Source: Granulosicoccus antarcticus IMCC3135 (GTDB lineage Bacteria; Pseudomonadota; Gammaproteobacteria; Granulosicoccales; Granulosicoccaceae). Taken from it: 64,000 bases of DNA. This document shows, in pieces, positions 2,463 through 43,077 of the stretch (its first letter is position 1; each line of letters opens with the position of its first letter). Under the pieces are notes generated by a model. The model had not been told where the DNA came from. It worked only from the letters and a program-made list of their open reading frames with translations, and did not search any database. The position numbers and the translations under genes were made by a program. The DNA lies in NCBI RefSeq assembly GCF_002215215.1, contig NZ_CP018632.1, positions 5,204,501 to 5,268,500 of the forward strand. The letters run 5' to 3'.

Positions 2463-3307
2463 ATATCTATATTCACGATTTTGCGAATGATCAAGCCACC
2501 AATACCCACCATGACAACGATGACCACCAGAAAGACCCACCCCAGTAGAGTGTTGAATATGGGTAGCGTGGCCTTGGGTTCGAAGTAGATCAGCGGCATG
2601 AGGATGGCGAATGGCAGTGCTGAGACCACCACGCCCTGCAGGCGACCTTGTGCGGTCAAGGCACCTACCTTGCCTTCCATTTCCAGTTTACGGCGGATCG
2701 TCTCCGATAAGCTCAACAGAATCTCAGCCAGATTGCCGCCAATATCATTGGCAATCAGAGCGGCGGATACCACCAGATCCATCTCTTCACTTTGTACGCG
2801 CTCTGCCAGGCTATCCAGGGCATCTTCCAGGCGGGCACCGACCCGTTGTTCTCGCAGCAGCAACGACAGCTCCTGCCCCAGAGGCCCTTTCTGCTCATCT
2901 ACATAGGACTGCATTGCCATCGTGAAGGTAGAACCAGCACGCATGGCACCGGAGATCTGTGTCAGGGCATCCGGTAGTCCCTGGTTGATCTTGACTCGTC
3001 GCCGTTTGGCCAGTTGCGCAAACATCACTCGGGGCGCCATGAACAGGACAAGCATGGCAAGCGATGACAGAAACAGACCAAAACCTGCTACGAATAGAAA
3101 CACCGGTATCAGAATAATGGCAGCGATATAGATAATCATCAGCTTGCGCGTATCAGTGAACAGGAACAGCTTGCGCATGTTCGATTCTGCCGAAACCGAG
3201 AGCCTTTCCGAATACTGATCAACCGCTTCGGTGGTGGTGCTCATGCAGAAGTAGGCCACGAACGAGATGCTGATGAACAATATCAACATGACCCCATAGA
3301 GCATCAT
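2459..3307 (-). CDS. tadB: Tad secretion inner-membrane platform protein TadB
   Basis: 282-residue GspF-domain protein: N-terminal membrane segment, two further membrane segments around residues 58-95, the conserved ALTQISGAMRAGSTFTMAMQ region, then EEMDLVVSAALIANDIGGNL and RLQGVVVSALPFAILMPLIY. This is the usual TadB architecture; with TadC it forms the inner-membrane platform of the Flp pilus machine. The ATG at 3307 overlaps the stop of the TadA gene by 4 bases and its own stop overlaps the tadC start, so the three genes are translationally coupled. Confidence 0.92.
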   Translation of the reverse strand: MMLYGVMLILFISISFVAYFCMSTTTEAVDQYSERLSVSAESNMRKLFLFTDTRKLMIIYIAAIILIPVFLFVAGFGLFLSSLAMLVLFMAPRVMFAQLAKRRRVKINQGLPDALTQISGAMRAGSTFTMAMQSYVDEQKGPLGQELSLLLREQRVGARLEDALDSLAERVQSEEMDLVVSAALIANDIGGNLAEILLSLSETIRRKLEMEGKVGALTAQGRLQGVVVSALPFAILMPLIYFEPKATLPIFNTLLGWVFLVVIVVMVGIGGLIIRKIVNIDI

Positions 3308-5172
3308 CCCAAACCTCCTTCAGCACGTGACCTGAAGGCCGACAAATCCACTTCCATGCCTATACTGCGCAGCTCTTCGTAGAAAGTCGGGATAGCGCCG
3401 GTGGCCGAGAAATAACCACGTACCCGTCTTTGCTCATTGACGCCCTGTTGTTCAAAACGAAAGATGTCCTGAAGTTGTACGGTGCCGCTTTCCACCCCGA
3501 CAACTTCGGTAATACGGGTAATTTTGCGCGAACCGCAGGGAAAACGTGTCTGCTGAATAATGAGATCGACCGCCGAGGCCACCTGCTCACGAATCGCTGT
3601 GACTGGCAGGTCCATACCCGCCATCAGAATCAGGACTTCCAGTCGCGACAACACATCACGAGGCGTATTTGCATGAATAGTGGTCAGAGACCCATCGTGT
3701 CCGGTGTTCATGGCCTGCAACATGTCAATGGCCTCGCCACCGCGGCACTCGCCCACCACAATTCGATCCGGGCGCATGCGCAGGGAATTTTTCACCAGAT
3801 CGCGAATAGGCACAGCCCCCTTGCCCTCCAGATTGGAAGGTCTGGATTCTAGCGATACCAGGTTTGGCTGCACCAGCTTCAACTCCGCTGCATCCTCAAT
3901 GGTGACGATACGATCCGTATCGGGAATGAAATTGGACAGCACGTTCAGCAAGGTGGTCTTGCCTGAACCGGTCCCGCCCGAAACAATGATGTTCTTGCGC
4001 ATCTCCACACACACACGCAGAAAATCAACCATGGCCTGACTCACCGAATCGCAAGCCACCAGATCCGAGAATTGCAGGCGGTGCTTGGGAAATTTGCGAA
4101 TAGTCAGACTCGGCCCCTTCAGAGCCAACGGTGGAATAATCGCATTGACTCGCGAGCCATCCTTGAGCCGTGCATCGACAATGGGACTGCTTTCATCGAT
4201 ACGCCTGCCCAGTGGGGTGATGATGCGTTCGATGACGGCAAACACGGTGGCATCGCTACTGAAGTGCGCGCTGGATCGCTCAAGTCGGCCTGCGCGTTCT
4301 ACAAAAATCTCACGATAATTATTCACCATGATCTCAGTGACCGACTCATCACTCAAAAATTGCTCCAGTGGCCCAAGACCCACTGACTCATTCAGCACAT
4401 TCTCACTCAGCTGCACCCGATCCAGCGAGTCGGGCAGTTGTGAGGACAGGCTGCGAATGATTTCACTGATTAATTGACTGGACTCGGTACGCAGCTGCTC
4501 ATCGGACATGCGATTGACATCCTTGCGTCGCAGATCCATCTGGAACAGCAACTGCTCATGAATGATCCGGCCCCAATAGGCCAGGGCCTGATCAAATTTC
4601 TTGTCGTCTGCATCCTCAAGATTGGCTTGCGAAACTTCCTCGTTTTGTGCGCCGTTATCACTTGTAATACCAGCCCCTGCCTCTTCAAAGTCACCTACTG
4701 TCTGGCCTGCTGTTGAACTCTGCCCTGCAGAGGCGGGACTCATCTCCTGTCTGTCAAACCTTCTGGCAGCATTCGCTGAGGGTCCAGCGCTCTTGTCCTG
4801 AGAGGCATCGGCATCCTGGTGGGCATTGCCACCCTGAGAGGCATTCATTGAATTCAACTCGGCCTCATTACTACTCATCATTCGCACGCTGCGAAACGAG
4901 ACACTGATATCACCCACTTCGATCTCATCCAGATCGGACAGCGGGCCATAGTCAACGATGCGCTCCCGGTTAATCCAGGTGCCACTCAGGCTGCCCAGAT
5001 CGCGCAGATATACGCCATCCTGCTCAAGCCGCAGCTCGGCATGGCGTTTACTCATCAGGCGACTATCGATAATCAAATCATTGTTGCGGGCACTACCGAC
5101 TGAGCAGTGGCTGCCCTTCGCCTGGAAGAGCTTGCGGCGGCTATTGCCCTGCTGATAATAGAAATCAAACAT
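3304..5172 (-). CDS. tadA: FHA domain-TadA/CpaF fusion, pilus secretion ATPase
   Basis: 622-residue protein, longer than a usual TadA (about 420-480). Residues about 20-95 form a forkhead-associated domain: VGSARNNDLIID, SKRHAELRLE and DLGSLSGTWINRERI match the Gly-Ser-x-x-x-Asn, Ser-x-x-His and Ser-x-Gly-Thr positions that bind phosphothreonine. A Ser/Ala/Asp-rich linker follows (about 97-190), then the CpaF-type ATPase with Walker A SGGTGSGKTT (about 398-407), Asp boxes and the His box GHDGSLTTIHANTPRD. It powers Flp pilus assembly in the cytoplasm at the inner membrane. The FHA fusion suggests that assembly or localisation responds to a phosphoprotein, perhaps replacing TadZ, which is absent here. 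Confidence 0.93.
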   Translation of the reverse strand: MFDFYYQQGNSRRKLFQAKGSHCSVGSARNNDLIIDSRLMSKRHAELRLEQDGVYLRDLGSLSGTWINRERIVDYGPLSDLDEIEVGDISVSFRSVRMMSSNEAELNSMNASQGGNAHQDADASQDKSAGPSANAARRFDRQEMSPASAGQSSTAGQTVGDFEEAGAGITSDNGAQNEEVSQANLEDADDKKFDQALAYWGRIIHEQLLFQMDLRRKDVNRMSDEQLRTESSQLISEIIRSLSSQLPDSLDRVQLSENVLNESVGLGPLEQFLSDESVTEIMVNNYREIFVERAGRLERSSAHFSSDATVFAVIERIITPLGRRIDESSPIVDARLKDGSRVNAIIPPLALKGPSLTIRKFPKHRLQFSDLVACDSVSQAMVDFLRVCVEMRKNIIVSGGTGSGKTTLLNVLSNFIPDTDRIVTIEDAAELKLVQPNLVSLESRPSNLEGKGAVPIRDLVKNSLRMRPDRIVVGECRGGEAIDMLQAMNTGHDGSLTTIHANTPRDVLSRLEVLILMAGMDLPVTAIREQVASAVDLIIQQTRFPCGSRKITRITEVVGVESGTVQLQDIFRFEQQGVNEQRRVRGYFSATGAIPTFYEELRSIGMEVDLSAFRSRAEGGLG

Positions 5173-24435: not shown

Positions 24436-24468
24436 GTATCGACCATACTAAGCAAGGAATGATTGACC

Positions 24469-25074
24469 ATGCAGGAGCTCACCAAGCGGCAGCAGGAAAT
24501 TCTGCGAATGATCCAGTCGCATATCGATCGAACCGGCTTCCCACCAACGCGTACCGACATCTGTGAGCACTTCGGCTTCCGCTCGCCTACCGCTGCTGAT
24601 GATCATCTGCGAGCACTGGAGCGCAAGGGCGCCATCGAACTGATCCCGGGAACCTCCCGTGGCATTCGTGTCCTCAGCGAACTGGAAGAGGACGGCATTC
24701 CCCTGGTTGGCCGTGTTGCTGCTGGCGAACCCATCATGTCCGAAGGCAATGTCGAAGAATACCTGCCGGTCGATCCAGACCTGTTCTACCCTCATGCGGA
24801 TTACCTGCTGCGGGTCAGTGGTACCAGCATGCAGAATATCGGCATCCTCAATGGTGACCTGCTGGCGGTACATGCCACCGAGCACGTACAGAACAACCAG
24901 ATTGTCGTGGCTCGCGTCAACAATGAAGTCACTGTGAAACGTTTCCGCAGACGCGGCAACATTGTGACCTTATTGCCGGAAAACGACGATTTTGACCCCA
25001 TTCGCATCGATCTGCGCGAAGAAGAGTTCCAGATAGAAGGGGTTTATGTCGGCGTACTGCGTCGCGATTCCTGA
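24469..25074 (+). CDS. lexA: LexA, SOS repressor
   Basis: 201 residues from the ATG at 24469 (AAGGA ten bases upstream); a TTG two codons earlier is in frame but less likely. Winged-helix DNA-binding region: LTKRQQEILRMIQSHIDRTG, FPPTRTDICEHFGFRSPTAA. Self-cleavage residues are in place: Ala85-Gly86 in GRVAAGEP, Ser120 in SGTSM and Lys157 in EVTVKRF. The residues after the Ser are QNIGI rather than the usual K/R-D-IGI. It represses SOS genes until RecA filaments trigger self-cleavage. First gene of an operon with imuA and imuB. Confidence 0.96.
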   Translation: MQELTKRQQEILRMIQSHIDRTGFPPTRTDICEHFGFRSPTAADDHLRALERKGAIELIPGTSRGIRVLSELEEDGIPLVGRVAAGEPIMSEGNVEEYLPVDPDLFYPHADYLLRVSGTSMQNIGILNGDLLAVHATEHVQNNQIVVARVNNEVTVKRFRRRGNIVTLLPENDDFDPIRIDLREEEFQIEGVYVGVLRRDS

Positions 25075-25083
25075 TATTTCCTG

Positions 25084-25767
25084 ATGGATGCAGTTCCGAT
25101 CCCAGACTCGCCCACCGCACTCGACGCCCTGTTGAAATCCCAGCCTGGCCTCTGGCGAGGCCGGGATCGGTACCATGACGACAAGGCGATGCCAACAGGC
25201 TTCGCCTCTCTGGACAAAGCCTTGCCAGCACGCGGCTGGTGCATGGCAGGGGTCACCGAAATGCTCAGCCATCATCAGGGCATCGGTGAAGTCAGCCTGT
25301 TGCTGCCAGCCTTGAGCCAAATCACCTCCGATGGCCAATGGGCGGCCTTTATCAATCCACCTTATATCCCCTACGCACCTGCCCTTGGCAATGCGGGTAT
25401 TCACCTCGAACGTCTGCTGATCATCAACAGTGGTAACGATACCGACACGCTCTGGAGCGCCGAACAGCTATTGCGCTCGGGCCTGTTCGCCAGCGTGGTT
25501 GTCTGGGTCACACGCAGTAATGCACAAAAACAGCGCCGCCTGCAGATCGCCGCAGAATCTGGCAAGACGTGGGCCACCATCTACCGGCCCTGGCAGGCGC
25601 AGGATGAACACTCACCGGTGTCTGCCCGCATGCGCCTATCCATCGTGAACAAGCAGCTGCGGCTGGAGCTGTTCAAGGTGCGCGGTGGCAGCCCGCAGAG
25701 TGTCATCATCGAACCAAGCGAATTTGATGCCTCACAAGGGGTCGAATGGCCTATTCCTGCCGCCTGA
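25084..25767 (+). CDS. imuA: ImuA, translesion synthesis accessory protein
   Basis: 227 residues of the ImuA/SulA-like, RecA-related family: MPTGFASLDKALPARGWCMA and GVTEMLSHHQGIGEVSLLLP occupy the place of the RecA core, and LRLELFKVRGGSPQSVIIEP is a typical ending. ImuA works with ImuB and the DnaE2 (ImuC) polymerase in damage-induced mutagenic repair, binding or remodelling RecA filaments. The Walker A motif is degenerate (no intact GKS/T), as usual in this group. It lies 9 bases after lexA and 3 bases before imuB, so it should be SOS-controlled. Confidence 0.88.
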   Translation: MDAVPIPDSPTALDALLKSQPGLWRGRDRYHDDKAMPTGFASLDKALPARGWCMAGVTEMLSHHQGIGEVSLLLPALSQITSDGQWAAFINPPYIPYAPALGNAGIHLERLLIINSGNDTDTLWSAEQLLRSGLFASVVVWVTRSNAQKQRRLQIAAESGKTWATIYRPWQAQDEHSPVSARMRLSIVNKQLRLELFKVRGGSPQSVIIEPSEFDASQGVEWPIPAA

Positions 25768-25770
25768 ATC

Positions 25771-27189
25771 ATGCTTTGGCTGGCACTGCATTTCCCCCAA
25801 CTACCGCTTGATCGACAGGACCCTGATGCGGCTGATGATCCACGTGCCGTGGTGCTGCAGGAGGGTGCCCGGCGGCGCATTCTGGCCTGTAATGCCAGCG
25901 CCACAGCCAATGGCATACGGCCAGGTCTGGCGCTGAAGAACGCCTATGCCCTGACGCCCAACCTGCTGACCAGTGACTATGATGAGCACCAGCAACTGGC
26001 TCACCTGGAACAGCTCACGCTGTGGGCCTTGCAATACTCATCCCTGGTCTCACCCGAACCGCCAGACACCATTCTGCTCGAAATTGCCGCCAGCCTGACC
26101 CTGTTCGGTGGCCTTGCCGCTTTATGCGAAAGCATCACCAGGGACATTGGACAACAGCACCTGAGCCTGTCCAGCGCCATCGCCCCAACACCTGCCGCCG
26201 CCCTGCTGTTTGCCCGCGCCGGCGTCCATCACCAGATCCTGGACAAGCCCACACTGGTTTCAACCCTGGCCGGTGCCCCGGTCGACTGGCTACCACTGAA
26301 CGACTTCACGCTCAAGGGCCTGCGCCAATCCGGTATCCGCTCAGTGGGTGAGCTCACAGCCCTGCCGCCTGCCTCATTGACGCGTCGCTTTGGCAGCACC
26401 TGCACCCAGTTGCTCTACAAACTTGATGGTCGCCTGCCCGATCCCAGAACGGCCTATAAAGCGGCTGAAACGTTCTCCCAGTCGCTGGACCTGCCTCTGG
26501 AGGCGCCGGACACCAACGCTCTGGCTTTCCCGCTCAATCGCCTGATGAATGCCCTGGGTGGCTACCTCAAGGCGCGCGACCTGGGGGTGCGCCATGTGGA
26601 GCTGATTCTGTCGCATCACCGCAAACCGGCCACCCATCTGTCCCTGAAATTTCTGGATGCCACCGCCAACACCGATCACCTGTTTCGTGTGGCAACCGAG
26701 CGGCTGGGTAATCTACAGCTGGCAGCGCCCATCACCCGCCTGGGCCTGGAGTCCAGCGAACTGGCCTGCCTGCAGCGCGAAAGTGTCGACCTGTTCCAGC
26801 AAAGCAAGGCCCAGAGCACCACTCAAGGCAGCACGATCGAGCAGGTACTTGACAGACTCTCGGCTCGCCTGGGCAAGGATGCGTTCTATACCGCGGTCTC
26901 CGGTGATGATCACCGTCCGGAGAAAGCCTGGCTCTCAGCCCTGCTGGATAATCAGCCATTACCCGGGCTCTGGCCCGCCCGCCCTGTCTGGTTATTGGCC
27001 GAACCCAGCCCCTTGAATGAACCGGTCACACTGCACACCTTGCCAGAACGCATCGAAAACGGCTGGTGGGATGATACGGACGTGCGTCGCGACTATTTCA
27101 TTGCCAGCACCCGTGATGGGGCTTACTACTGGGTCTACCGCCAGCGACACTCGCCCGACCAGCTCTGGCTGCATGGGCTTTTTGCGTGA
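25771..27189 (+). CDS. imuB: ImuB, inactive Y-family polymerase-like protein
   Basis: 472 residues. The Y-family fold is evident (RRRILACNASATANGIRPGL, the helix-hairpin-helix region LKGLRQSGIRSVGELTALPP and the little-finger domain), but the N-terminus reads LALHFPQLPLDRQ, lacking the first catalytic Asp of active DinB. That is the known condition of ImuB, which acts as a hub linking ImuA, the beta clamp and DnaE2. The C-terminal about 100 residues resemble the ImuB tail. No dnaE2 follows here; the polymerase partner must be elsewhere, if present. Confidence 0.92.
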   Translation: MLWLALHFPQLPLDRQDPDAADDPRAVVLQEGARRRILACNASATANGIRPGLALKNAYALTPNLLTSDYDEHQQLAHLEQLTLWALQYSSLVSPEPPDTILLEIAASLTLFGGLAALCESITRDIGQQHLSLSSAIAPTPAAALLFARAGVHHQILDKPTLVSTLAGAPVDWLPLNDFTLKGLRQSGIRSVGELTALPPASLTRRFGSTCTQLLYKLDGRLPDPRTAYKAAETFSQSLDLPLEAPDTNALAFPLNRLMNALGGYLKARDLGVRHVELILSHHRKPATHLSLKFLDATANTDHLFRVATERLGNLQLAAPITRLGLESSELACLQRESVDLFQQSKAQSTTQGSTIEQVLDRLSARLGKDAFYTAVSGDDHRPEKAWLSALLDNQPLPGLWPARPVWLLAEPSPLNEPVTLHTLPERIENGWWDDTDVRRDYFIASTRDGAYYWVYRQRHSPDQLWLHGLFA

Positions 27190-33943: not shown

Positions 33944-34480
33944 CTACTGTCCCCGTTGAGCGACAAGTCCGTTCAAAAACCAACGAACCGCCTGATCTCC
34001 ACAACGTCGATAGTTACGTGCGTCCGGGCTTCTAAAGAAGGCACCCACTTCGGTTTTGCCAACTTTGCCACCACCCGCCACCATCAATGTATAGATGTCA
34101 TCGGAGCGTAGTGCCAGGGCAATACGTAACTGTTTGAGCACCAGGTTGTTGCTGACTGCAGGCTCTTTGTCTGCCTTGTCAGTCACCTTGGCCGCAGCTT
34201 TGTCGCCAGCCGCCGGTGCCTTCTCGGCAGCAGCAGGCCCGCCTGTTGTGGTGTTTCGCTCAGGCGGTGGTCCGCGCCGATCGAGAATCAGGCCATCCAG
34301 CAAAGCCAGCAAGGCCTCATCCGGGCAGGCTACGTACTCCGGCTCCTCTTCCTTGCAGCGAAAACCGGCAACGTGCTCCGGGCTCACCCACTGGCCTCCC
34401 AGTTCGATCAGACGTACCGCATCGGCATCGTCGAGACGCAAGGCGTAACGGATGCGCCGGTTGAATTCATTGTTGTCCAA
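33944..34480 (-). CDS. DUF1456 family protein with low-complexity linker
   Basis: 178 residues with two related helical halves, as in YehS: NEFNRRIRYALRLDDADAVR and the second LVLKQLRIALALRSDDIYTL, each followed by a Gly/Lys and a charged Cys-or-Arg region (PEYVACPDEALLALLDGLIL; NYRRCGDQAVRWFLNGLVAQ). Between them is an Ala/Lys/Pro-rich insert of about 40 residues (around 73-112, GGPAAAEKAPAAGDKAAAK) absent from short members. The function of the family is unknown; it is cytoplasmic and sits alone. Confidence 0.85.
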   Translation of the reverse strand: MDNNEFNRRIRYALRLDDADAVRLIELGGQWVSPEHVAGFRCKEEEPEYVACPDEALLALLDGLILDRRGPPPERNTTTGGPAAAEKAPAAGDKAAAKVTDKADKEPAVSNNLVLKQLRIALALRSDDIYTLMVAGGGKVGKTEVGAFFRSPDARNYRRCGDQAVRWFLNGLVAQRGQ

Positions 34481-34741
34481 TTTATCTCCCGAGCTGATTG
34501 CTCGCCATAAGTGAACCGAGTCGCGAACAAACGCCCCGGAATTGATACTAAAGTGTAAATCTGATTATCTAAGTCACTGTTTTCAATAGAACTGAAAGCG
34601 TGAACCGATCCTTGAGCTGCTCAACGCCCAGCGCAAAAAAGTGATAGACATCATGTTTTTCTACTGTATTTCGCACCTGACAACACAGGTTTTTGTATGA
34701 TGTAACCTTACTCTTGCGGACCAGGGACGTTACTTCAGACA

Positions 34742-35368
34742 ATGTCGATGAGTACTACTATGGAGTGGACAAGCCTGCTTCCCTACCTCTATTTTGCTGT
34801 ACTTGGCATCTTTTGCCTGATATTCGGTTATGTATTGGGCGCCCGACGTTCAAGAGTGGTAAAGCTTCGAGTGCTTCGAGATCTGAATACGCAATCTCTG
34901 GAACTGCTCGATACCAAGTCCTCATTGAGTTCCCTGGAGCATTATGCCTCGCAGCAGGAACGAAAGGACAGGTTACTGAAACTGACATTGCAAAAGCTTC
35001 AGCAAGCCGAAGCACGTTGCCGCCAGATGAGCGATATTCAGGATCGGCAGCATCGCAAGAATTACGTGGAAATGTCACGCCTGCGACTCGATGCGGTGCA
35101 AGCTCATGAAGCGGCTGCCAAAGCGAAAGATATTGCGCAAAGAGCGACTGCCCATCTGCAGCGATTAGAACAAGCTTCCCCGAAAACACAGACAATCATC
35201 GCCCCGGAGCCTAAATCCTACGGTACCGGTGAACCGGTTACAGTGAGTGTGGTTGATCAGATCCACCCGAAAAGTGCGCGAGACAATATCGTGCCCGTCT
35301 CCAACCGGGACTCGGCACGCCTGACCAGGCTTAGCAGCAGCAACGAGGCCAGCGCACCATTTTCCTGA
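34742..35368 (+). CDS. membrane-anchored coiled-coil protein, unknown
   Basis: 208 residues. A single membrane segment (about 12-31, LLPYLYFAVLGIFCLIFGYV) followed by Arg-rich GARRSRVVKLR predicts a cytoplasmic body. Residues about 45-150 are helical and charged with heptad character (LLKLTLQKLQQAEARCRQMS); the tail is Ser/Pro-rich. No enzyme motif was seen. It is the first of three same-strand genes for membrane-anchored proteins (next an OmpA-like protein and a helix-hairpin-helix protein). A 261-base space before it holds no recognised feature. Confidence 0.6.
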   Translation: MSMSTTMEWTSLLPYLYFAVLGIFCLIFGYVLGARRSRVVKLRVLRDLNTQSLELLDTKSSLSSLEHYASQQERKDRLLKLTLQKLQQAEARCRQMSDIQDRQHRKNYVEMSRLRLDAVQAHEAAAKAKDIAQRATAHLQRLEQASPKTQTIIAPEPKSYGTGEPVTVSVVDQIHPKSARDNIVPVSNRDSARLTRLSSSNEASAPFS

Positions 35369-35532
35369 AGCCTGTCACTTTTTTAAAAACAGACTGATTG
35401 CAAAGCTCTACCCAGACTGACACTCAGCCAGCTCCCGGGCCAGACCATGCCTGTACTTTAAAGCGCGCTGACGATGCGATGAACGTGTTCAACACATTCA
35501 GTTAGCAGGCGCATAATGCTATTATCCGGATC

Positions 35533-36240
35533 ATGTCGGCGCCCACATTACACTTCAACCTCCCAGACGCCGAGCGTCCCAGCATCTGGCCGTGGCTCAT
35601 TGCCCTGCTTTGTGGCGTCTGCCTGCTTTTTCTCGTGGCTCAAAAGCTGCAATCCATACCAGCCTCCCTGCAGCAACAGGCTGAGCAACAGCTTGCAAGC
35701 TCGCAATTGGACAATCTGACCGTCGATGTGGATGGACGCGATCTGATCCTGCAAGGCACCATCGACAAGCAGCTTTCAATGGCCCCGTTGATCAAGCAGT
35801 TGTCAAACATCGACGGCGTACGCATTGTCAAAGACGATCTGAGGCGGTTCGACGCTGTCGAGGCAGAGATTCAGCAAACTCAACAGTTCTTGCAGGTCTT
35901 GTCCAGAATCAACCTGTCCGCCGTCTCCTTTCAAGCTGGCAGCAATTCCATTGCAGCTGGTAGTGAGACAGCTCTTGACCAGGTCGTGCAATTGCTGAGG
36001 AACAACCCGGATAAGCGCATCAGAATCGAAGGTCATACTGATGACACCGGGCCTGCCTCTGTGAATCTGAGGTTGAGCCAGGAACGTGCACAGGCAGTAG
36101 CGCGCTACCTGGAATCAGGCAATGTGTCTGCCAGCCAGATGATTGCCAAGGGCTATGGTTCCACGCAACCAATCGCTGACAACACAACCGATTCAGGCCG
36201 GGCAAAAAATCGGCGTATTGAAATCAGTTATGTGCATTAA
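35533..36240 (+). CDS. inner-membrane-anchored OmpA-like protein
   Basis: 235 residues. One membrane segment (about 20-38) anchors the protein with its C-terminus in the periplasm. Residues about 60-105 (LTVDVDGRDLILQGTIDKQL) resemble a BON-like domain. The OmpA C-terminal domain follows, with peptidoglycan-binding signature RIRIEGHTDDTGPASVNLRL, SQERAQAVARYLESG and AKNRRIEI. It would tie the inner membrane to peptidoglycan, like a MotB- or stator-type anchor, but no MotA-like partner is nearby. The gap to the next gene is 42 bases, so the two are probably cotranscribed. Confidence 0.85.
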   Translation: MSAPTLHFNLPDAERPSIWPWLIALLCGVCLLFLVAQKLQSIPASLQQQAEQQLASSQLDNLTVDVDGRDLILQGTIDKQLSMAPLIKQLSNIDGVRIVKDDLRRFDAVEAEIQQTQQFLQVLSRINLSAVSFQAGSNSIAAGSETALDQVVQLLRNNPDKRIRIEGHTDDTGPASVNLRLSQERAQAVARYLESGNVSASQMIAKGYGSTQPIADNTTDSGRAKNRRIEISYVH

Positions 36241-36282
36241 GGGCTCGGTTTGTTGTAACACTCAACGAAAGCGGAAAACATC

Positions 36283-37761
36283 GTGATCTATCTACTGTCT
36301 CAAATGGTGTTTGCCCTGGTTCTGGCCGTGTTGCTGGGCGCCGCATTGGGCTGGATTCTGCACCGCAATACCAAGGACAAGGACACCAGCAAGTTCAAGA
36401 ACGTCATCAATCGACAACGGCAGCAGTACAGTCAACTGCAATCGGAAATTGCCATGCTGACGGACGACTATGACGAACTGCAACGCCAGTCTCATGACGA
36501 ATTGATCGAGCTTCGAGAAGCCAACCAGCAAATCCCCTCTCTCAGCACGAACCTGGAAAAATCCCAACTCCTGGTCAGTCAGATGCTGAAAAAGCATGAC
36601 TCGCAGTTGCGCGAACTCAACACGCAAAACCAGTCATTGGCAACGCGGCTCAAAAACGCTGAAAGCCACGAGCAAGCCTATTACAAGCAGCAAGCGGATC
36701 TGGATAGCGAGCGTCGAAATCAGGACAGCTCATCCATCGAGATCATTGTCGCCACAGCCGCCATGCTGGTCGAAGATGACGACAATCTGGATGACACCGT
36801 ACTATGGGAACAACCTGCCAGCGCCCCGACCGCCTCCGCATCGACTGCCCCCACACCAGACACCCGCACTCAGCCAGTTATCAGTAGTGCCCGCAACACG
36901 GGTAGCTGGGCGTCTGCACCTGTCACAATAAATGCTGACCGCGAAGATGAGCAGGAAGCAGCGGACGCAAACTCCTCAGCTTCTGACGACTCCCTGGATG
37001 CTTCTGAAGCCGTTGCCGTGCTTGATGAAACATCTTCGATTGATGAAGAAGACCTGGATGCCGTGCATGTCGTCATCGACGAGGACATCTGGGGCATTGA
37101 CGACGACGAATCAGTGAGTGAAGATCTGGATCTGACGGCTGCTGTAGGTTATTTCTCGGATGACGAGTCGGATGAAGAATCCGGTGATCATGACAATAGT
37201 CTGGCCTTCACTCAAGTCATCGACAATTCACCGGTCATTTTCCTGAATGCAGATACGCCAGAATCTGACTCGAAGAGCGATTCTCGGAATGCTGCGGCTG
37301 CGTCGAATGGTGTAGCAGCCGCAGCACCCGCTGGCGAGACTCACAGAAGCACTTCAGCAGCGGACGCTTCTGAGACGGTCTCAACGGAACAGCAGCTTGA
37401 ACTGCCTGAATTACCTGAACTGCCCGCTGATGTTTTTGACGTTGATCCCTTCGATCAGGTCATCGAGATCGGCGACGATCTGCAACTCGGGCTGGATGAT
37501 ACTTCTGATGAAGAGGAGTCGAACTCGTTCGATCCGGTCGAGCACCGTGATGATCTGCAACAGATATTCGGCATCGATCATTTGACCGAGATAGCTTTGA
37601 ACGATCTGGGTATAACCAGCTTTGCGCAACTGGCAAAGCTGAAGCACCATGAGATCGAGACAATAGCCAATGCGCTGAAGATTGTGCCTGAGCGCATCGA
37701 ACGCGATGACTGGGTAGGTAATGCCCGCAGTCAACTGGAAGACGTGCTCGAAGATCTGTAG
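36283..37761 (+). CDS. membrane protein with coiled coil, acidic linker and C-terminal helix-hairpin-helix domain
   Basis: 492 residues from a GTG start. One membrane segment (about 6-26) followed by HRNTKDKDTSKFK predicts a cytoplasmic body. Residues about 35-145 are coiled coil (QRQQYSQLQSEIAMLTDDYD). Residues about 160-420 are low-complexity and very acidic. The last about 70 residues (DLQQIFGIDHLTEIALNDLG, ITSFAQLAKLKHHEIETIAN) form a helix-hairpin-helix domain of the kind found in predicted 5' nuclease-like and DNA-binding proteins, ending ERDDWVGNARSQL. It may tether DNA or a nucleic-acid complex to the membrane; no catalytic residues were seen. Confidence 0.7.
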   Translation: MIYLLSQMVFALVLAVLLGAALGWILHRNTKDKDTSKFKNVINRQRQQYSQLQSEIAMLTDDYDELQRQSHDELIELREANQQIPSLSTNLEKSQLLVSQMLKKHDSQLRELNTQNQSLATRLKNAESHEQAYYKQQADLDSERRNQDSSSIEIIVATAAMLVEDDDNLDDTVLWEQPASAPTASASTAPTPDTRTQPVISSARNTGSWASAPVTINADREDEQEAADANSSASDDSLDASEAVAVLDETSSIDEEDLDAVHVVIDEDIWGIDDDESVSEDLDLTAAVGYFSDDESDEESGDHDNSLAFTQVIDNSPVIFLNADTPESDSKSDSRNAAAASNGVAAAAPAGETHRSTSAADASETVSTEQQLELPELPELPADVFDVDPFDQVIEIGDDLQLGLDDTSDEEESNSFDPVEHRDDLQQIFGIDHLTEIALNDLGITSFAQLAKLKHHEIETIANALKIVPERIERDDWVGNARSQLEDVLEDL

Positions 37762-37818
37762 CTGGCTCGTCCCTTGCACTTGTTTGATAGTCGCTCTGTA
37801 CCCGCGTTCGCCTGAACC

Positions 37819-39423
37819 ATGGTGTCTGGTGGTTGGCAGAGCATTCCCCTCGTTTCACAATCAAACAGCCTCTTGAACCGGATCAAAGATTACCTTCGAC
37901 GCGACACCCCAGGCGTTGCGGCCAACTTGCGTACGGTGCCTCGATGCAAATCACTGGCGCACCTCGCCTTTTGTGTCTGCCTGCTGCTTCCTCTGCAGGC
38001 AATGGCTGCTGGCGAAAAAAGCCTCGACCCGAGCCTTGGTTTCAGTGATTGCTCGATCGGTACGGGGGCTGGCAAACTGCTTGCCCAGTGCACCACACTG
38101 ATGGTGCCTCTGGATCCGGAAGCTGCCGACTCAGGCTCACTTGAACTTGCCATTGCCCGCATACCGGCACGTCGTCAATCTGCCAGCACAGAAGCCTTCA
38201 CCCTATTGGCAGGTGGCCCCGGGCAATCAGCACTGGAGTCCTTCCCGGCTGTCTCATTTGCCTTTCGCCACATCATGAGAGATTACGATGTGATTCTGGT
38301 CGATCAGCGTGGCACCGGGGACTCTGCCCGCCTGAGCTGCCCTGACGCCCCGGATTCACTGGGCACGGAATTCGAACTGGATACAGAGCATCTCAGCGAG
38401 CTGGCACAAGAATGCCTCGACAGCCTGGAACACGACCCACGCCTGTTCACCACCAGCGTTGCGGTCAAGGATCTTGAGCAGGTTCGCCTGGCACTGGGTA
38501 TCAGTCAATGGAATCTGTATGGCATTTCCTACGGCACACGAGTCGCCCAGCATTATCTGCGCCGCTACCCTGACAGGGTTCGAACCATGGTTCTGGATGC
38601 CGTGGTGCCACCGGAGGTTACATTAGGTCCGGATATCGCCCCATTGGCGCAGCGAACGCTGGACCTGATCTTTCAGCGCTGTGTTGATGACAGCGGCTGC
38701 TTTGAAGCCTTTGGTGACTTGAAAGAGCTCACCCGGACATTGCTCGAATCACTGGAAAAACAACCACGCACTCTGACTTTTGAGGACGTTGCCACCGGCA
38801 AGCTCACCACCTTGGAATTTACCCGTGAGCATCTGGCGATCACCTTGAGGCTGATGTCCTACAGTTCGCAAACGGCAGCCATTTTACCTTCGATGCTGCA
38901 CGAAGCTCTGATCAACGATAACTTTGCACCTCTTGCCCGTCAGGCCAATCTGCAGAGCCAGTCACTCGGCGACTCCTTGTCCACCGGTATGCATCATTCA
39001 GTCATCTGTACCGAGGATGCCCCGTTCATGACGGCCGTCCCTGTGGATGAAGATCCAGAGTTCAGTTATATGGGCGATGCGGTGGTCGACTCCCTGCTCG
39101 CCAGTTGTAAACCCTGGCCAGTGGGGCGTATTGATGAGGACTTCAAAGAGCCACTGATCTCCGATAAACCGGTACTGATACTCTCCGGTGAGGCTGACCC
39201 TGTGACCCCGCCCCGCTATGGCGAACAAGTTGCCAAAACTCTGGTCAACTCTCGCCACCTGATCAATCCGCAACAAGGTCATATGCAGGCACCTTTTGGC
39301 TGCATGCCGGTGCTACTTGCCCAGTTCGTGGAAACCGCAGATGCCCTGTCACTGGATACTGATTGTCTGGAGAGGATGCGCGTCTTACCCTTTTTTATCG
39401 ATGCTAACGGGCCGCTGCCATGA
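37819..39423 (+). CDS. secreted alpha/beta hydrolase, tripeptidyl/prolyl aminopeptidase-like
   Basis: 534 residues. A basic N-terminal segment precedes a signal-like hydrophobic stretch (about 50-62, ending AMAAG), so a later start is possible. The alpha/beta hydrolase core has the oxyanion region TLLAGGPGQSALE, VILVDQRGTGDS and the nucleophile elbow NLYGISYGTRVAQ; the C-terminal TAP-like domain contains PVLILSGEADPVTPPRYGEQ and the catalytic His region NPQQGHMQAPFGC. It probably cleaves short peptides from N-termini in the periplasm. Its stop overlaps the next ATG by 4 bases, coupling it to an ABC exporter. Confidence 0.85.
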   Translation: MVSGGWQSIPLVSQSNSLLNRIKDYLRRDTPGVAANLRTVPRCKSLAHLAFCVCLLLPLQAMAAGEKSLDPSLGFSDCSIGTGAGKLLAQCTTLMVPLDPEAADSGSLELAIARIPARRQSASTEAFTLLAGGPGQSALESFPAVSFAFRHIMRDYDVILVDQRGTGDSARLSCPDAPDSLGTEFELDTEHLSELAQECLDSLEHDPRLFTTSVAVKDLEQVRLALGISQWNLYGISYGTRVAQHYLRRYPDRVRTMVLDAVVPPEVTLGPDIAPLAQRTLDLIFQRCVDDSGCFEAFGDLKELTRTLLESLEKQPRTLTFEDVATGKLTTLEFTREHLAITLRLMSYSSQTAAILPSMLHEALINDNFAPLARQANLQSQSLGDSLSTGMHHSVICTEDAPFMTAVPVDEDPEFSYMGDAVVDSLLASCKPWPVGRIDEDFKEPLISDKPVLILSGEADPVTPPRYGEQVAKTLVNSRHLINPQQGHMQAPFGCMPVLLAQFVETADALSLDTDCLERMRVLPFFIDANGPLP

Positions 39424-40238
39424 TAATCGCAGAGCAGCTGCACAAGAGCTTCAAGCGTACCGGTTCAGGTTCCGGCCTGCTGTCGCTGGGCAAGCGCTTC
39501 GGATCAAGGAAAAAACCGACTACGCTGAATGCCAATCGAGTGGTCGCTGTCGAGTCGGTGAGCTTTGCCGCTGAAGATGGCAGAATCACCGGTTTGCTGG
39601 GGCCTAATGGCGCGGGCAAGTCAACGACTTTGCGTATGCTGGCCACCTTGATCAAACCGGATCACGGCAGTGCCCGTGTCGATGGTTTTGATGTGAGCAC
39701 GGATGTTCTGAAGGTGCGGCAACATCTGGGCTTCATGCCGCACAACGCGGGCATTTATCCTAGGCTGAGTGCTCGTGAAAACATTATCTACTATGCACGC
39801 CTGTGTGGTTTGAACAAGGTACAGGCAGAGGCTCGTGTCGGCCAACTCATCGAGCAGCTGGATATGCACAGCTTTGCCGATCGTCGGGCAAACGGCTTTT
39901 CGCAAGGCCAGAAAACCAAAGTGGCACTGGCCAGAGCTCTGGCTCATCGTCCTCAGACTCTGATGCTGGATGAACCCACCAATGGACTGGATGTCATGGC
40001 AACCCGTGGGCTGCGGGAGATCATTCGCCAGCTGGCAGCTGATGGACACTGTGTGGTCTTCTCCAGTCACATCATGCAGGAAGTGGCTGCACTGTGTGAT
40101 CACATCGCAATCATCTCCGATGGCAGCATTGCCATGCAGGACACGCTATCGGGCATTCTTGAACGTACCGGCGAACAGGATCTGGAAGATGCCTTCATCG
40201 CCGCGACCCGGATACTGGGCGACAGGAGCCCGACATGA
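39420..40238 (+). CDS. ABC transporter ATP-binding protein, NatA-like
   Basis: 272 residues. Walker A GLLGPNGAGKSTTLRML, signature FSQGQKTKVALARALAH with SQGQ in place of SGGQ, Walker B TLMLDEPTNGLDVM and switch His in VVFSSHIMQEVAALC are all present. The closest pattern is the NatA sodium/drug exporter ATPase. An N-terminal insert of about 20 residues (SGLLSLGKRFGSRKKPT) lies before the D-loop strand. It overlaps the hydrolase gene in front and the permease gene behind by 4 bases each, forming a coupled three-gene operon. Confidence 0.92.
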   Translation: MIIAEQLHKSFKRTGSGSGLLSLGKRFGSRKKPTTLNANRVVAVESVSFAAEDGRITGLLGPNGAGKSTTLRMLATLIKPDHGSARVDGFDVSTDVLKVRQHLGFMPHNAGIYPRLSARENIIYYARLCGLNKVQAEARVGQLIEQLDMHSFADRRANGFSQGQKTKVALARALAHRPQTLMLDEPTNGLDVMATRGLREIIRQLAADGHCVVFSSHIMQEVAALCDHIAIISDGSIAMQDTLSGILERTGEQDLEDAFIAATRILGDRSPT

Positions 40239-41401
40239 ATCTGTTCATCATCATGTTCAAGGAGATTCTGGACAATCTGCGTGATCGCCAGACGGTGTTC
40301 TATGCACTGCTATTCGGGCCCGTTCTGCTGCCTGTATTGCTTGGCGGCTCTCTGGTAGCCAGCTTCAAGCAGCTATCCATCAATTTTGATCAGGTGACCT
40401 CATTGAGCGTGGTCAATGCCGAGCAGGCGCCACAATTGATGGAGTTTCTGTACAGCAACAACATCGATATCACCGCCGCACCAGAGAACGTTCAGGAAAG
40501 CGTGCGGTACGGAGACAACCTTGTAGTACTGGAAATACCCGATGATTTTGGCGCACAACTACGCCAGGGCCAACCTGCCCCGCTGACTCTGCATGTGAAC
40601 AGTGCGGACAAGGAATCCAGCAAGGCTGAGCGTCGTGTTACCGCAATTCTCAACGTCTACGAACGAACACTCAACAGCCTGCGGCTGCAGCACCGCGGCA
40701 TAGATCCGTCCACCTTTGACAGTCTGGATATCATCCAGAACGATGTCTCCAGCGATGGTGCCAGTGGACAGCTACTGGCATCCATTCTGCCGTTTCTATT
40801 CATCATGTCGATGGTGATGGGAGGCTTTTATCTTGCCATTGATACCACTGCTGGCGAACGTGAACGGCATTCACTGGAGCCCTTGCTCAGTCTGCCACTG
40901 GAACGCAGTGCCGTGGTTTTTGGCAAATACGGTGCAACGCTCTGCTTTGTCACCCTGTCCAGCATTCTGACGGCATTGAGCATCTATACGCTGTTCCGAC
41001 TGTTTCCGGTAGAGCTGATGGGCGGGCAGATTCGCTTTGATGGCCTGACAGTGACCCGTGCCTTTTTGCTGGCAAGCCCACTACTACCTTTTATCTCGGC
41101 CATGCTCATAACGGTCTCGGCCATCACCCGCAGTACCAAGGAGGCGCAAACCTACCTGGGACTGCTGATGCTGGTGCCCATGGCGCCGTTTTTTCTGCTC
41201 CAGTTCCTGACTTTGCGCTCAACCACGGCCTCCATGTCCATTCCCATGCTCAGCCAGTACCAGCTACTGGAAAGCGCGGTATTGGGAGATACCATACCGT
41301 GGCTGCACATCGGCCTGTCCGCAGCCGGGACTCTGGCCGCCACCGCACTGCTGCTCTACTGTGCTGGCCGGCTGTATCAGCGGGAACGACTGCTGGATTG
41401 A
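40235..41401 (+). CDS. ABC transporter permease, NatB-like
   Basis: 388 residues of the ABC-2 type. One N-terminal membrane segment (about 22-40) is followed by a large periplasmic domain (about 45-180) and five to six membrane segments towards the C-terminus; the conserved TTAGERERHSLEPLLSLPLE segment is typical of NatB. With NatA it would export sodium, a lipid or a peptide. The coupled upstream secreted peptidase suggests that the substrate may be a peptide, though this is inference. Confidence 0.88.
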   Translation: MNLFIIMFKEILDNLRDRQTVFYALLFGPVLLPVLLGGSLVASFKQLSINFDQVTSLSVVNAEQAPQLMEFLYSNNIDITAAPENVQESVRYGDNLVVLEIPDDFGAQLRQGQPAPLTLHVNSADKESSKAERRVTAILNVYERTLNSLRLQHRGIDPSTFDSLDIIQNDVSSDGASGQLLASILPFLFIMSMVMGGFYLAIDTTAGERERHSLEPLLSLPLERSAVVFGKYGATLCFVTLSSILTALSIYTLFRLFPVELMGGQIRFDGLTVTRAFLLASPLLPFISAMLITVSAITRSTKEAQTYLGLLMLVPMAPFFLLQFLTLRSTTASMSIPMLSQYQLLESAVLGDTIPWLHIGLSAAGTLAATALLLYCAGRLYQRERLLD

Positions 41402-41481
41402 TCACCACGCGGCGGCAACGCGGAAAGAAGAGATGCAGGGCATCTAAAAACGCAAAAAACTTGTGTCCCTGGCCCCTGGTG

Positions 41482-43077
41482 TCATGTCAGTAATTCCAGC
41501 AATTTCTTGCGCTGAATCTTGCCGGATGGCCCTTTGGGTAACTCAGCCATGAAATGGATTCTGTCGGGACATTTGAATGCCCCGACACGCTCGACACACA
41601 GTTCCAGCAACTGTGCTTCGGTGACTGTGGAGTTATCCTTGACACTGACAGCGGCCTCCACGCGTTGACCGAAATTATCGCAAGGCCTGGCAAACGCTGC
41701 CGCCTCGACAACATCGGCATGCTGATATAGAACATCGTCGATTTCACGCGGTGCGATATTCTCCCCGCCCTTGATGATCAGTTCTTTTAGCCGACCCGTG
41801 ATGAAAAGATAGCCCTCATCATCCATGCATCCCAGATCGCCGGTCCTGAACCAATCGCCTGCCACCATGGCCTCACGCGTGGCAGTTTCATTCCTGAAAT
41901 AGCGGGACATGACATTAGCACCCTTGATCAGCAACTCACCTTCCTGGCCTTGCGGCATGTCGTTCAGCTGGCTATCCACGATTCTGACCTCATCGCCTAC
42001 TGGCAAACCGGGAGAACCTAGCTTGCGCACTGCGGGCGGCATGGGATTACTCAATATCTGCGCAGCCGTCTCCGTCAGCCCCATGGTTTCAATCATGGGA
42101 ATACCAAAGCGCTTTTCGAAATTGGCATGCATGGCTGGCGACAAGGGGGCCGAGGCCGAACGCCCGAATCTCAGAAAAGTGCGTTCGACATTTTGCTCGG
42201 CATCTCGCAGCAGATACGAGATTTGTGTCGGCACCACACTGAACCAGCTGCATTGGTAGCGATCCACCCATTCCCAGAAACCAGAGGTGGAGAATTTGCC
42301 CGGCACCACCACGGAACCTGCACTGACCAGCGGGCCCATGATGGTCACACACAGCCCATTGATGTGATAAAGCGGTAATACGCACAAGGCTCGATCCTTA
42401 TCACTGAGCTCATGCCCCTCGGCGATATTGATACCGCCGGCAATCAGGTTGCCATGGCTCAACACCACCCCTTTTGGCCGCCCGGTGGTACCACTGGTGT
42501 ACATGAGCAAAGCATCAGAATCATTGCCTGTTTGCATTGACTCCGGCGATGTCCCCTCACGCTTTGACTCAGCCGCACCCTCGCTACTGCCTGCTGAAGA
42601 CTTGGCAAGTAACGAGTCAATCCACACATCATCAACACTGAGCACCGAGGGTCTGATTCGCTCTGTTTCCTCTGCCAAGGGTTCACAGGCGCTCTCGAAT
42701 GCCTCACTGTTCACAGCGTCCCTGATCAGGCTTTCATGCTCTGACTGAGTCAGAATGAGTATGGACTCGGAATGTGAAAGAACGTAGGCAATGACGTCCC
42801 GGCCTGCCACCAGGTTGATGGCAACGGCACGATAACCGCCATAAAGCAGCCCCAACACGGTTACGGCACAACAGCGCCCGTTATGCATGGCATACGCAAC
42901 ACTCTGTCCGCGCTTGATGCCCTGACTTGACACATAGTCTGCCACCGCTCGTACTTCTGTCAGTAAAGCGGCGTAATCGAGACTCTGCCCCGTATCAGCA
43001 TCGATCAGAAACGGCCTGACAGCGTTATCTGAAGCACGGGCTTCGATCAAGTCTTGTAGTGTTCCACGATTATCCAT
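41482..43077 (-). CDS. AMP-forming acyl-CoA ligase (possible sulfoacetate-CoA ligase)
   Basis: 531 residues. ANL-superfamily motifs: LLMYTSGTTGRPKGVVLSHG for ATP, PMIETMGLTETAAQI, WFRTGDLGCMDDEGYLFITG with GRLKELIIKGGENIAPREID, and the catalytic Lys region PKGPSGKIQRKKL. It activates a carboxylate as acyl-AMP and transfers it to CoA. It is the last gene of an operon with a CoA-acylating aldehyde dehydrogenase and a tripartite carrier, the same enzyme pair as SauT and SauS of sulfoacetate use; a residue-level substrate assignment is not possible. About 15 residues in the middle (SSAGSSEGAAESK) are low-complexity. Confidence 0.85.
   Translation of the reverse strand: MDNRGTLQDLIEARASDNAVRPFLIDADTGQSLDYAALLTEVRAVADYVSSQGIKRGQSVAYAMHNGRCCAVTVLGLLYGGYRAVAINLVAGRDVIAYVLSHSESILILTQSEHESLIRDAVNSEAFESACEPLAEETERIRPSVLSVDDVWIDSLLAKSSAGSSEGAAESKREGTSPESMQTGNDSDALLMYTSGTTGRPKGVVLSHGNLIAGGINIAEGHELSDKDRALCVLPLYHINGLCVTIMGPLVSAGSVVVPGKFSTSGFWEWVDRYQCSWFSVVPTQISYLLRDAEQNVERTFLRFGRSASAPLSPAMHANFEKRFGIPMIETMGLTETAAQILSNPMPPAVRKLGSPGLPVGDEVRIVDSQLNDMPQGQEGELLIKGANVMSRYFRNETATREAMVAGDWFRTGDLGCMDDEGYLFITGRLKELIIKGGENIAPREIDDVLYQHADVVEAAAFARPCDNFGQRVEAAVSVKDNSTVTEAQLLELCVERVGAFKCPDRIHFMAELPKGPSGKIQRKKLLELLT

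Follow-up and report, generated by a model that had tools for sequence, protein, structure and literature searches.

A recurrent gene pair in Granulosicoccus antarcticus that may encode a two-protein scaffold between cell wall and cytoplasm

Introduction

What might three adjacent genes for single-pass membrane proteins in Granulosicoccus antarcticus IMCC3135 hold together? The genes, here called P1, P2, and P3, lie on the forward strand of a 64,000-nucleotide stretch (positions 5,204,501 to 5,268,500 of the single 7,783,862-bp contig NZ_CP018632.1), which we refer to as the window and whose numbering is used throughout. An earlier note on this DNA had read the three genes as one set that could link the cell wall to the nucleoid or to a structure of division or segregation. 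The computational analysis described here points to P2 and P3 as a smaller, older core of the locus, and to a protein as a likelier partner than DNA for the cytoplasmic end of P3.

Results

The open reading frame (ORF) list of the window contains the three same-strand genes just where the earlier note had placed them, and each product has a single transmembrane (TM) segment. TM segments were called from Kyte-Doolittle windows; ORF starts were set mechanically, with the start codon read as methionine. The two core members are separated by 42 bp. P2 (35533..36240, + strand, 235 aa) consists of a TM segment followed by a BON-like part and an OmpA-like domain. P3 (36283..37761, + strand, 492 aa) comprises a TM signature, a coiled coil, an acidic linker, and a C-terminal helix-hairpin-helix (HhH) domain.

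P2 and P3 recur as neighbours well beyond the host family. A broader P3 profile (A4) was built from eight genus rows together with G391, G393, G394, and G149. Searched against 274 genomes sampled evenly from the class, it matched at profile position 1 or 2 in 18 places, and in 16 of these a P2-like frame lay directly upstream on the same strand. Without the host family and G149, which had first been met through P2, 11 of 13 places were paired. Further pairs in the class were found at L083, L091, L094, L096, and L155. A family from a different class of the phylum has an OmpA gene 78–172 bp ahead of the gene of a TM-HhH protein of 168–172 aa at two loci (L159 and L160, the same loci as L124 and L138). 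Two arrangements were not counted as pairs, namely HhH and OmpA frames in reverse order (L086) and an OmpA gene approximately 240 bp before a TM-HhH gene (L165).

A scan of named genomes, keyed on two P3 peptides only (coiled coil and HhH), returned at least 80 loci; the counts that follow are among the matches listed and exclude records titled Granulosicoccaceae or Granulosicoccus. A P2-profile frame lies directly upstream of 33 of the 39 TM-bearing HhH frames, with gaps of −97 to +14 bp (32 of 38 without L218, the locus of profile row G149). None of the 17 TM-less HhH frames has a P2-like frame upstream; some of these are fragments or, in Nitrospira records, interrupted frames. Thirteen of the pairs come from records other than the Nitrospira type: eight gammaproteobacterial or Acidiferrobacterales metagenome-assembled genomes (MAGs; L206, L207, L209, L210, L212, L214, L215, and L218), Bryobacterales (L246 and L247), Myxococcota (L216), Rhodothermales (L217), and L211. 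Taxonomy is that of the record titles, many of which denote MAGs; the title and the isolate name of L211 conflict, and L234 is titled Nitrosospira. Some of the P2-like frames were checked for TM and BON; that of L207 is truncated where its contig begins, and the match of L216 covers the OmpA part only. In L217, L236, and L246, which their titles assign to three phyla, opposite-strand genes flank the pair on both sides, so that it is self-contained.

With no more than 27 OmpA matches in a genome of an assumed 2000 genes, a chance neighbour is expected for approximately 1.4% of genes, and 33 of 39 would have a probability of about 2e-55 at that rate. The cases are not independent, and owing to shared ancestry this figure is too strong; the spread over several phyla stands apart from it. 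The association of P2 and P3 is far above chance.

The relation is not reciprocal everywhere. No P3-like frame was seen at L257, L258, and L259, where BON-OmpA proteins have a signal-peptide-like start (by eye), nor at L260–L263, which are mainly OmpA matches and of which L261 has its downstream side beyond the sequence end, nor beside G097, which gave the highest-ranking P2 match from beyond the family. The BON-OmpA genes of L258 and L259 lie beside frames resembling the type VI secretion system (T6SS; by eye).

The OmpA-like domain of P2 (aa 133–227; 35929..36213, +) matches its Pfam family far above the cut-off (E 3.6e-25, 88.6 vs. 27.2 bits). The BON-like part (aa 46–104; 35668..35844, +) stays below it, with E 0.006 and 17.3 bits vs. 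27, as it does in two relatives with 22.0 and 25.4 bits. The AlphaFold2 model of P2 (mean predicted local distance difference test, pLDDT, 86.6) contains a long N-terminal helix (residues 19–56) followed by folded parts, with strands 62–67, 70–78, and 99–106 and helix 84–91 in the BON-like part. Of the BON-like plus OmpA part that the earlier note had placed in the periplasm, the OmpA domain is confirmed, and the BON match is present but sub-threshold. Foldseek searches with the model revealed a resemblance of the C-terminal part to the domains of Pal, OmpA, and YfiB (best E 2e-11). The OmpA part matched structure 2l26 by profile (E 3e-30), and 2l26 was also a Foldseek hit of P2 (E 1.5e-9), although the whole-chain superposition was poor. 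Residues D170 and R185, the positions at which OmpA-like domains hold diaminopimelate, do not vary in any of the 21 aligned rows. The OmpA fold and these two residues suggest that P2 binds the cell wall. P2 did not qualify as a member of the TssL family (80.1 vs. 139.8 bits) or the MotB family (68.7 vs. 259 bits); all of the 25 NCBIfam matches listed, out of 44, were below their own cut-offs.

The TM helix of P3 (aa 1–27; 36283..36363, +) carries the signature M-x-Y-L-I-x-Q…A…G-xxx-G-W. In 40 sequences from the window, the family, and distant relatives, alanine was found in 36, the first glycine in 36, the second glycine in 36, tryptophan in 38, and glutamine or glutamate in 37. These rows were picked by hand among loci already judged to be relatives, and the counts describe the family rather than test it. 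The cytoplasmic ends of P2 partners vary between a COG3743-like HhH domain, a DUF4332 domain, and none detected; all three P2-paired relatives tested for it carried DUF4332 (Pfam E 1.5e-25 to 2.9e-30). That the TM helix outlasts the cytoplasmic end suggests a specific partner within the membrane, for which P2 would be the obvious candidate.

Residues 33–150 of P3 (36379..36732, +) form a coiled coil by heptad signal, as the earlier note had assumed: none of 1000 shuffles reached the observed value, and 20 of 21 orthologous frames passed the test (threshold, no more than 10 of 200 shuffles). The lone miss is a fragment. The adjoining stretch (aa 151–415; 36733..37527, +) had been described as "about 260 acidic residues". 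The acidic stretch exists, but it is a segment of 265 residues of which 26% are aspartate or glutamate, with a net charge of −63.

The C-terminal HhH domain of P3 (aa 421–492; 37543..37758, +) had been regarded as being of DNA-binding type. The predicted model indeed adopts an HhH fold (pLDDT 91.3). Its structural resemblance to NusA, RadA/Rad51, Pol theta, and Pol iota is weak (best Foldseek E 0.23); absence of a family from this match list does not exclude that family. The DNA-binding character fits the window copy less well. Its net charge is −8, and its first hairpin reads GIDHL instead of the GIG present in 19 of 19 aligned relatives, so that the canonical GxG is missing. In all 20 full-length genus sequences the domain is acidic (net −2 to −9; the two P3 fragments of G008 were omitted). 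Over 97 domains the mean charge is −1.1, with a range of −9 to +7. Judged by these charges, DNA binding is possible in some homologues and unlikely in the window protein.

The domain has other homes as well. Clear sequence matches in the PDB were the complex I subunit NuoE and the RC-LH1 component protein-O (profile A4; 9wqv_a 2.4e-18 and 8yy9_O 3.9e-12). The P3 end is homologous to the tails of NuoE and L21 (NCBIfam E 3.5e-13 and 4e-9, both below the whole-protein cut-offs). For this end alone, Pfam gave only SAM_LFY, below cut-off (E 0.21). Models and frames also placed the tail on L21, S2, and phasin, and frames named by eye on PhaE-like and alanine-dehydrogenase/PntAA-like proteins. No P2-like neighbour was found in the 1.5-kb flanks of the HhH-tailed L21, S2, NuoE, and similar loci. 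Protein-O has been described as carrying a C-terminal domain akin to NuoE-type tails, whose functions are called obscure in the part of the text available (PMC12079452). The genome of G. antarcticus itself holds two more significant copies, one in an alanine-dehydrogenase-like protein and one in an unpaired TM protein of 373 aa, which has no P2-like neighbour (L174:7474-8592). As side observations, an HhH tail is fused to an L19-like ribosomal protein at L164:6674-7570 (by eye), and three Granulosicoccaceae loci (L248, L250, and L252) contain frames longer than 2,100 residues, each with a C-terminal pair of HhH copies, that of L250 also with a P3-signature-like TM stretch near its start.

Within the genus, all three genes occur in order in 22 of 26 relatives (23 plus three added later); in G008, a contig end truncates P3. 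The exceptions are G018, which lacks P1, G017 and G007, where a contig end falls inside the cluster, and G023 (82% complete), which shows none of the genes. Gaps in the genus range from 6 to 54 bp between P2 and P3 (20 loci) and from 48 to 206 bp between P1 and P2 (19 loci). The same locus occurs in records titled Granulosicoccus sp. and in Granulosicoccaceae MAGs. In the family, G391 retains a P1-like gene, P2, and P3 alongside an additional TM-HhH gene; in G393 and G394, P2 and P3 remain together and P1 gives no match. In G390, G399, and G402, a BON-OmpA gene is followed by the gene of a long TM protein that is coiled-coil-like, with no HhH detected.

P1 (34742..35368, +, 208 aa) is an accessory gene of the genus, 164 bp upstream of P2. 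It has an N-terminal TM segment (approximately aa 11–33 by eye) and a stretch free of proline and glycine (aa 36–145). The cytoplasmic coiled coil formerly assigned to it was not borne out because 566 of 1000 shuffles reached its heptad value and only 1 of 20 orthologues passed at the threshold given above. In this orthologue test the fragment L030 was omitted and the false start of L040 kept; alignment A1 omits L040 and L030, and alignment A3 omits L047 and L031. Two short motifs in the tail (window ~35180–35350), QTI-APEPKSYG-G--VTVSVVDQ and VSNRDSARL--L-SSNE, are strongly conserved amid variable sequence and may represent a binding motif. Nine of 21 orthologous P1 frames end in an HhH domain (profile E 1e-8 to 1e-12), which the window copy lacks, and the layouts of P1 and P3 are therefore related. 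P1 matches were present in 21 of 23 same-genus relatives. Its profile yielded four matches in 369 class genomes: two came from the window and another member of the genus, and the remaining two were weak and short. The family loci examined gave one weak relative (L068, E 1.7e-8), most family genomes being outside this search. P1 is an addition to the core and was met almost exclusively within the genus. Because P1 is scarce outside the genus, whereas P2 and P3 are tightly spaced and recur beyond the family, we do not regard all three as a single conserved unit. In the genus the genes keep together instead of being scattered; P1 does not belong to the wider unit.

The same-strand run does not end with P3 but continues to 41401. 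A gene for an alpha/beta hydrolase with a TAP-like C-terminal domain (37819..39423, +) follows after 57 bp, and then come those of an ABC ATPase (39420–40238, +) and an ABC-2 permease (40235–41401, +), neighbours overlapping by 4 bases. The hydrolase gene adjoins P3 in 21 of the 22 genus relatives whose sequence runs on, the exception being G005 (L039), and its function is probably separate from that of P1–P3. Promoter-like hexamers, TCAACA-17-CATAAT (35489..35517, +), lie in the gap between P1 and P2, but such sites are as frequent as in shuffles (4 in 34400–41600 vs. a mean of 4.1), and the number of terminator-like sites is within one standard deviation of shuffles. Elsewhere in the window we noted, by eye, a tad-pilus-like cluster in which a CpaF-like ATPase carries an FHA domain (fusion at 3304–5172) and a lexA-imuA-imuB-like SOS cluster (24463–27189).

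Discussion

The findings are consistent with a unit of two inner-membrane proteins, P2 and P3, that connects the cell wall with a client in the cytoplasm. We hold this reading, a scaffold with a docking domain inside the cell, with about even confidence. In the topology suggested by the positive-inside distribution (by eye), P2 would cross the membrane once and hold peptidoglycan with its OmpA-like domain, the BON part acting as a spacer or as an oligomerising part. P3 would cross it with its conserved helix, whose polar glutamine or glutamate and Gly-xxx-Gly-Trp most likely pack against P2 or against P3 itself. The coiled coil and the acidic, probably flexible arm would reach into the cytoplasm, where the terminal HhH-like domain may dock to a protein, possibly to another copy of the same type of domain, and not to DNA. 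P1 might serve as an extra arm at the level of the genus.

Several observations weigh against such a scaffold or narrow it. In the class, L143 and L145 carry the TM signature without a P2-like frame. In the family of the other class only two of five TM-HhH loci adjoin OmpA (none at L161, L162, and L163). Among the matches listed in the named genomes, 20 of the 33 pairs derive from Nitrospira-type records, and six of the 39 TM-HhH frames lack a partner (L203, L213, L221, L233, L241, and L256); L233 is uninformative on this point because its gene starts 341 bases into the contig. In five MAGs (L209, L210, L212, L214, and L215) the partner is a TM-BON protein of only 125–139 aa without OmpA, and wall binding is thus not universal. 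The HhH fold also occurs in nucleic-acid-binding proteins, and in certain distant homologues the end is basic (L203, +8). Finally, the map of protein-O leaves its HhH domain untraced, according to the accessible portion of the report (PMC12079452). At L241 (3417–4850), the P3-like gene without OmpA lies downstream of ExbB/ExbD/TonB-like frames (by eye).

The basic ends and the fold, with its matches to RadA/Rad51, Pol theta, and Pol iota, are also what speaks for an envelope-to-nucleoid tether in which the HhH domain of P3 binds DNA, as does the GIGP of the first hairpin, which is kept in the aligned relatives and in most rows of the wider alignment. This tether was nevertheless demoted because the genus domain is acidic and sits behind an acidic arm, because the window copy lacks GIG, and because the same domain type is found on L21, S2, NuoE, phasins, and protein-O, for which a DNA-binding role is hard to rationalise; moreover, there are P2 partners with no detected HhH. 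We regard it as unlikely, and docking of the domain to a protein seems likelier than DNA binding. Of the wall-to-nucleoid link proposed in the earlier note, the wall-binding-type domain outside and the long cytoplasmic arm inside are retained, but DNA as the inner partner is not. A different possibility is that P2 acts in the periplasm in envelope stability or permeability, like mycobacterial OmpATb, and that P3 only positions or multimerises it. The shared layout of anchor, BON, and OmpA and the matches to 2l26 favour this view, which is distinctly unlikely in our judgement since it leaves the conserved TM signature and the HhH-type tails of the partner unexplained, and five loci retain the pair without an OmpA domain.

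The genes might instead serve the assembly or anchoring of an exporter made up of the downstream hydrolase and ABC-2 proteins. The hydrolase follows P3 almost throughout the genus and also lies downstream in G391 and G393, which represent other genera of the family. A role tied to these genes is weakened by G005, where the hydrolase is not beside P3, and no hydrolase or ABC match was obtained at E 1e-10 in 20 class loci; we consider the exporter link very improbable. Conserved gene order with no shared function would be compatible with promoter and terminator evidence on co-transcription that stays at chance level. Given that records of several phyla contain the pair, its genes a few base pairs apart or overlapping, mere proximity is hardly credible as an explanation.

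How does the P2–P3 scaffold compare with known systems? ZapG/YhcB and RodZ span the membrane once, have cytoplasmic arms, and couple the cytoplasm to the growth or division of the envelope; we know of no BON-OmpA partner of either, nor of a TM–coiled coil–HhH partner of OmpATb. MotB/PomB, TssL, and further OmpA-domain proteins of the inner membrane possess a periplasmic OmpA-like domain, as P2 would, but neither a MotA-like nor a T6SS gene is among the identified neighbours in the window. The layout of P2, an N-terminal anchor followed by BON and OmpA, is shared with OmpATb/ArfA (Rv0899) of Mycobacterium tuberculosis, as far as the accessible part of the source describes it (PMC6151718), although the BON part of P2 is below cut-off. 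The study on DolP defines a cluster with a similar domain combination, BON+BON+OmpA, with 318 proteins in its table; the portion of the text available names no partner gene for it (PMC7806268), and the window P2 has one BON-like part. COG3743-like tails on L21, S2, NuoE, phasins, and protein-O are homologous to the P3 end but follow other N-terminal parts. Protein-O, too, sits in a membrane and has a long flexible loop ahead of its HhH domain, as judged from part of the report (PMC12079452). DUF4332 proteins supply the end of the three tested P2-paired relatives, whereas P3 of the window has another domain. In agreement with the earlier note, no description of the P2–P3 module was found in the papers searched, which were judged by their listings and included few subscription papers within reach; COG3743 and DUF4332 are each mentioned in one listed paper.

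A bolder version of the scaffold, which we consider doubtful, would be an undescribed two-gene trans-envelope linker of several phyla, with a wall-bound TM-BON-OmpA protein and a partner whose interchangeable COG3743-like or DUF4332 ends dock like-to-like on machines of the cytoplasm with the same tail (for example ribosomal, NuoE, and storage-granule proteins), placing them at the wall. To our knowledge, few physical links between peptidoglycan and cytoplasm exist outside the machines for motility, secretion, and division. Given its occurrence across phyla, its conserved helix, and its wall-binding-type domain, the P2–P3 pair is a candidate for a general link of this kind. It would also give a handle on the role of the widespread HhH-like tail found on ribosomal, respiratory, and granule proteins.

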